Shown here piece by piece: positions 32,967 through 33,067 of a stretch of 64,000 nucleotides of DNA. The stretch is from the NCBI RefSeq assembly GCF_949774925.1, contig NZ_OX458932.1:1178001-1242000 (forward strand), read 5' to 3'. The translations under genes were made by a program, and so were the position numbers. Position 1 is the first letter of the stretch. The number at the start of each line of letters is the position of its first letter. Origin of the DNA: Candidatus Methylacidiphilum fumarolicum (lineage in GTDB: Bacteria; Verrucomicrobiota; Verrucomicrobiia; Methylacidiphilales; Methylacidiphilaceae). The notes beneath the pieces are model-generated. The model saw only the letters and a program-made list of their open reading frames with translations. It made no database searches and was not told where the DNA came from.

Positions 32967-32984
32967 TTTTAGATTATCCTAAAA
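32967..32984. promoter_or_regulatory. Candidate MntR operator in the mntR-acnA intergenic region
   Basis: The 18-base interrupted palindrome TTTTAG-ATTATC-CTAAAA resembles DtxR-family boxes (TTTAGG...CCTAAA type). It is centred 26 bases upstream of the mntR start, where it could overlap the promoter. It also faces acnA, 84 bases from that start. No binding data, pattern only. Confidence 0.45.
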
Positions 32985-33067
32985 ATTTAAAAGAAAAATG
33001 ATTTTTCTTGATAAAGTTATAAAATTCATAACAAAAAAGAAAATACATTGATATATTTTATAGATCT

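Follow-up and report, generated by a model that had tools for sequence, protein, structure and literature searches.

A conserved palindrome upstream of mntR as a predicted MntR operator in Methylacidiphilaceae

INTRODUCTION

Several operators and regulators that have been described previously resemble the palindrome analyzed in this study. In the available portion of a report on Saccharopolyspora IdeR, the sequence TTAGGNNNNCCTAA is proposed as the one-dimer consensus, or half-site, of IdeR/DtxR (PMC8464063). A second source, likewise available in part, describes the IdeR boxes of repressed genes as overlapping the -10 region or the start site (PMC10317159). As far as the accessible text of a third report goes, DR2539 of Deinococcus radiodurans is a regulator that responds to Mn and Fe, with an inverted repeat in the mntH promoter, and it carries Lys in place of Glu11 whereas His98 is conserved (PMC3327659). 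Finally, excerpts of a study on S. maltophilia place MntR boxes before mntH and before the gene for a TonB-dependent receptor (PMC13217887).

Here we describe a palindrome within a 64,000-nucleotide stretch of DNA from Candidatus Methylacidiphilum fumarolicum (the “window”). Comparison of sequences indicates that this palindrome is very probably the operator of MntR, which would thereby repress mntR-mntH together with an uptake route formed by a TonB receptor and TonB. We infer that binding and repression take place at this box, and that the metal sensed is Mn, perhaps Fe.

RESULTS

The palindrome and its neighboring genes

The palindrome TTTTAGATTATCCTAAAA is an 18-bp inverted repeat housed in the 117-bp gap between mntR and acnA (Table 1), and both its position and its letters are exactly those given in the original prediction. 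It had also been placed 17 bases before the mntR start. The upstream placement is correct, but we count 16 bases between the palindrome and the mntR ATG, with the box located in the part of the gap that adjoins mntR.

Table 1. Features at the mntR locus, in window coordinates
Feature	Start	End	Strand	Basis
MntR operator, predicted (inverted repeat of 18 bp with its TTAG-N6-CTAA core at 32969-32982)	32967	32984	.	Sequence and conservation
mntR: regulator of the DtxR family (HTH, metal/dimer, and FeoA domains); nearest solved sequence, 8pvt	32237	32950	-	Domain and structure-sequence matches
mntH: Mn(2+) transporter of the NRAMP type, downstream of mntR and co-oriented with it	30878	32191	-	Domain matches
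acnA: aconitase, divergent neighbor, probably outside the regulon	33068	35812	+	Domain matches and neighborhood comparison

The window MntR matches Fe_dep_repress with 57.6 bits and Fe_dep_repr_C with 104.1 bits, both above the Pfam cut-offs, and its FeoA domain likewise exceeds the cut-off. The best NCBIfam match is NF047407 MntR, whose score of 241.6 bits is under the curated cut-off of 350. The nearest solved sequences are 8pvt (152 bits), which we take to be the structure of DR2539, and 5zr4 (150.6 bits). Residues D18, K21, H87, H106, E110, E113, and H114 are invariant in an alignment of 7 of the 12 family sequences, and we presume that these are the metal-site positions by DtxR/MntR numbering. 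By the same assumption, K21 corresponds to the Lys that replaces Glu11 in DR2539, and H106 to its His98. The mntH gene is found behind mntR in all six family loci searched for it, and each of 12 family genomes encodes a single PF01325 protein.

There are 33 perfect inverted repeats with 6-bp arms and a 6-bp spacer in the window, including the palindrome itself. Bare symmetry is therefore at chance level and carries little weight, whereas the core TTAG-N6-CTAA occurs only once in the whole window. We scanned the genome for the motif, as the original prediction had suggested. The exact 18-mer occurs nowhere else in the 2.48 Mb (2,476,671 bases), but sequences with up to three mismatches (7 forward and 8 reverse) are fewer than those matching a backwards control (10 and 13), and thus show no enrichment. 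Because the loose matches do not exceed the control, we rejected the relaxed 18-mer as a genome-wide motif and consider the TTAG-N6-CTAA core alone to be informative. A plasmid search with the intergenic region returned no matches.

The arms do conform to the DtxR/MntR half-site type, as had been proposed, since the box read on the mntR strand (TTAGGATAATCTAA) has one mismatch to TTAGGNNNNCCTAA. The 19-bp double DtxR/IdeR box with four CCTAA repeats is not matched in a by-eye comparison, in which two arms only are seen.

A perfect 19-bp palindrome, AAGAAAAATGATTTTTCTT, is located beside the predicted operator at 32991-33009. Within it, on the mntR strand, is AAAATCATTTTT, the longest block of the non-coding gap that is invariant among five Methylacidiphilum genomes. 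This second palindrome is possibly the site of another regulator or a promoter element.

Conservation within the Methylacidiphilaceae

We examined 13 genomes of the family and found close MntR orthologues (51-100% identical) in 12 of them, comprising five from Methylacidiphilum (source genome included) and seven from Methylacidimicrobium according to inferred genus assignments. The remaining genome, G005, has only a distant relative of MntR. Exactly one TTAG-N6-CTAA is present just upstream of mntR at each of the 12 loci, and the motif is thus kept in relatives, a check that accompanied the original prediction. The distance from this core to the mntR ATG is 18-20 bases in all five Methylacidiphilum genomes and 13 bases in all seven Methylacidimicrobium genomes. 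At the distant DtxR-family loci L021 and L035, the core is absent. Overall, the core is found before mntR far more consistently than chance would allow.

The box also overlaps promoter-like sequences. Upstream of mntR in Methylacidimicrobium, these read TTGACG-17-CTAACT (six genomes) or TTGACG-17-CTAAAT (one genome), and in all seven the right arm of the box starts 17 bp after TTGACG, which is the expected -10 position. A consensus promoter scan of the window found none on the mntR strand.

It had been suggested that the site might also affect aconitase, in which case the palindrome would be a shared switch through which MntR controls both mntR and acnA. The two genes are divergent in all five Methylacidiphilum genomes, the acnA ATG of the window is 83 bases from the site, and the gap contains one promoter-like match, which has the orientation of acnA, though such matches are no more frequent than in shuffled sequences. 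However, the box lies nearer to mntR, and in Methylacidimicrobium it stays with mntR even though acnA is absent within 3 kb upstream at the four loci with full flanks (and within the 747 bp upstream at L122). The Methylacidimicrobium gene upstream of mntR instead appears by eye to be phosphopantetheinyl-transferase-like. Control of aconitase is therefore not supported, and we judge a shared switch to be unlikely; at most, acnA may be affected locally in Methylacidiphilum.

Predicted regulon

If the palindrome is an operator of MntR, its targets would be the DtxR-family and metal-uptake genes that the box adjoins, namely mntR-mntH, a TonB receptor gene, and tonB. We scanned all 13 family genomes with the pattern TTAGGN5CTAA. 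The seven Methylacidimicrobium genomes have 19 distinct sites, of which seven are at mntR, seven are at the TonB receptor gene, one is at tonB, and four (L111-L114) are elsewhere and fit no regulon gene. Two sites are present in G005. The background is higher in the AT-rich Methylacidiphilum genomes, as exemplified by G000, in which 3 of 14 distinct sites belong to the regulon (mntR, the receptor gene, and tonB) and 11 are background. Eight of the latter are inside open reading frames (ORFs) of at least 70 aa, and the other three (L052, L054, and L061), which we rejected, are between ORFs with no recognized metal gene nearby.

An orthologous TonB-dependent receptor gene is preceded by the box in all 12 genomes of both genera, where orthology was assigned without a tree from plug-domain coordinates and shared N-terminal sequence, and where start codons are uncertain. 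Two exact tandem TTAG-N6-CTAA boxes are present upstream of this gene in four Methylacidiphilum genomes, and the fifth (G002) has a degenerate first box followed by an exact one. The first box overlaps a promoter-like sequence, TTGACT-16-CTAATA in three Methylacidiphilum genomes and TTGACA-15-CTAAAT in two. The box-bearing receptor (L119:324-2768) is 815 aa in length, and yielded weak, generic TonB-receptor family matches only, with no solved relative among the structure-sequence matches.

A third box is located before tonB in all five Methylacidiphilum genomes; the boxed tonB of G000 is followed by two plug-domain receptor genes. The closest tonB matches in Methylacidimicrobium, which were found in six of the seven genomes, all lack this box (0 of 6). 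The single Methylacidimicrobium tonB box (G006) belongs to a different tonB from that of Methylacidiphilum.

In the five Methylacidiphilum genomes, we also considered sites whose fifth position is A, C, or T; 10 contexts were read, 7 of which overlap an ORF of at least 90 aa. In G001 (L210 near 1509), TTAG-N6-CTAA adjoins the start of a citrate synthase gene. No such hit beside citrate synthase is listed for the other Methylacidiphilum genomes, for which gene contexts were partly read. In G003 (L208 near 1509), TTAGATTAATCTAA is upstream of a gene for an HMA-domain disulphide oxidoreductase, presumably mercuric-reductase-like, and comes directly after TTGACC-N11-GGTCAA, an arrangement reminiscent of a MerR-type promoter. 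Orthologues in the other four genomes have no listed match to the pattern, and we therefore took the G003 site as a chance occurrence.

TonB receptor genes are classical targets of Fur, and each of the same 12 family genomes has one Fur-family gene. These facts would fit a box recognized chiefly by the lone Fur-family protein, with MntR acting elsewhere, but the arms are of the CCTAA type of DtxR/IdeR and presumably not of the Fur-box type, and the box accompanies mntR across phyla (see below). We consider binding mainly by Fur to be very unlikely.

Occurrence in other phyla

The proposal that the palindrome is an MntR operator is strengthened by the presence of the core before mntR not only in the 12 family genomes but also in other phyla. 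Genome contigs were scanned with the MntR alignment, and the best 80 of 192 loci were kept. Among these 80, 36 loci have the core at most 250 bp ahead of the segment that matches MntR. When the six family loci are removed, the core is still found at 30 of 74 loci, and these represent several phyla; many of the hosts are metagenome-assembled genomes, and closely related ones do not count as independent cases. Six core sites occur elsewhere in 455,851 bases; five are 270-460 bases ahead of MntR, and the sixth is at -1023.

TTAG at spacing 6 (36 of 80 loci) ranked first of 3584 combinations of 256 arms and 14 spacings, and the runner-up, TTTA at spacing 8 (19 of 80 loci), overlaps the same box. 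TTAG arms at spacings 5 and 7 were found at none of the 80 loci. Hosts with the core include Rhodothermus, Balneolales, Thermoanaerobaculales, other Acidobacteria, Meiothermus, Spirochaetales, Ignavibacteria, Chloroflexi, and Dormiibacter, and the core is missing within 250 bp at 44 of the 80 related MntR loci, including every one from Arthrobacter and Mycobacterium. In 13 of the 36 core-bearing loci, of which 6 belong to the family, mntR is followed by a match to the window MntH. That the palindrome is a functionless, AT-rich product of chance, as the 33 similar repeats in the window and the unenriched loose matches might suggest, is scarcely credible and already contradicted by its recurrence with one exact spacing in 12 of 12 family genomes and 30 of 74 outside loci.

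For the flanks of the predicted MntR operator, we used 40 of the 74 non-family loci, as the 34 omitted loci had no site in the 250-bp scan. Within 470 bases upstream, these 40 loci have 43 sites. When the two arms are tallied together, TTAG/CTAA is flanked directly by T/A in 71% of cases, and the next base outward is A or T in 82%. The general form is thus TTTAG-N6-CTAAA in an A/T setting, and the TTTTAG/CTAAAA arms of the window are one version of it.

A separate search of 61 Deinococci genomes gave a match in 60, and 30 loci were fetched in a set that overlaps the 80 loci above. The box is nearby in 8 of these 30 loci; of the 22 where it is not, two have it at about -351. Seven of the eight loci (L262, L270, L271, L273, L274, L279, and L287) have two or three copies, in each case including a pair 32 bp apart. 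Such paired boxes are suggestive of cooperative binding.

DISCUSSION

The simplest mechanism for the predicted operator would be repression by a single metal-loaded MntR dimer. When Mn(II), and possibly also Fe(II), is plentiful, this dimer would occupy the TTAG/CTAA arms and block RNA polymerase at the mntR-mntH promoter. Through the same box, MntR would also turn off the gene for one TonB-dependent receptor, and it would additionally silence tonB and the two receptor genes behind it in Methylacidiphilum. More tentatively, the single-dimer box of this MntR subfamily may predate the split of several phyla, and the acidophilic methanotrophic Verrucomicrobiota may have placed a TonB-dependent receptor, along with a dedicated TonB, under this box, a history that we find plausible but somewhat short of probable.

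If this regulon is real, these acidophilic methanotrophs would have a manganese-controlled, and possibly manganese-importing, outer-membrane route. The group would also acquire a testable Mn (or Mn/Fe) regulon, and a TonB-dependent receptor without an assigned substrate would become a candidate receptor for Mn or Fe. Furthermore, the simple box could guide the prediction of genes controlled by this MntR subfamily in several phyla. Our literature search, with subscription papers mostly and motif databases entirely outside its coverage, found no title or abstract opening that describes the box or the regulon in these bacteria. The site is of a known regulatory type, and for the receptor/TonB regulon and the cross-phylum box we found no description, although an earlier one is possible.

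To the extent described in the available part of the Saccharopolyspora report, the window box shares with the IdeR/DtxR half-site its two CCTAA-type arms, their equal spacing, and its fit to one dimer (PMC8464063). In the material at hand, however, IdeR is an actinobacterial iron regulator that usually has a 19-bp double site, whereas the window has an MntR-type protein and a single box. DR2539, as characterized in the accessible text, and the window MntR appear to share His98 and a Lys in place of Glu11, but the two proteins come from different phyla. In S. maltophilia, judging from the excerpts available, the boxes precede a TonB-dependent receptor gene as they do in the Methylacidiphilaceae, but the box is 25 bp, an extra box is present at mntP, and the receptor is of the CQNC type with a thioredoxin-fold partner (PMC13217887). 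The G000 receptor differs from this type, as its only cysteines are Cys16, Cys579, and Cys772. Among the printed accounts that we found, in the portions available, the MntR-linked TonB receptor of S. maltophilia is the closest precedent for the system predicted here.
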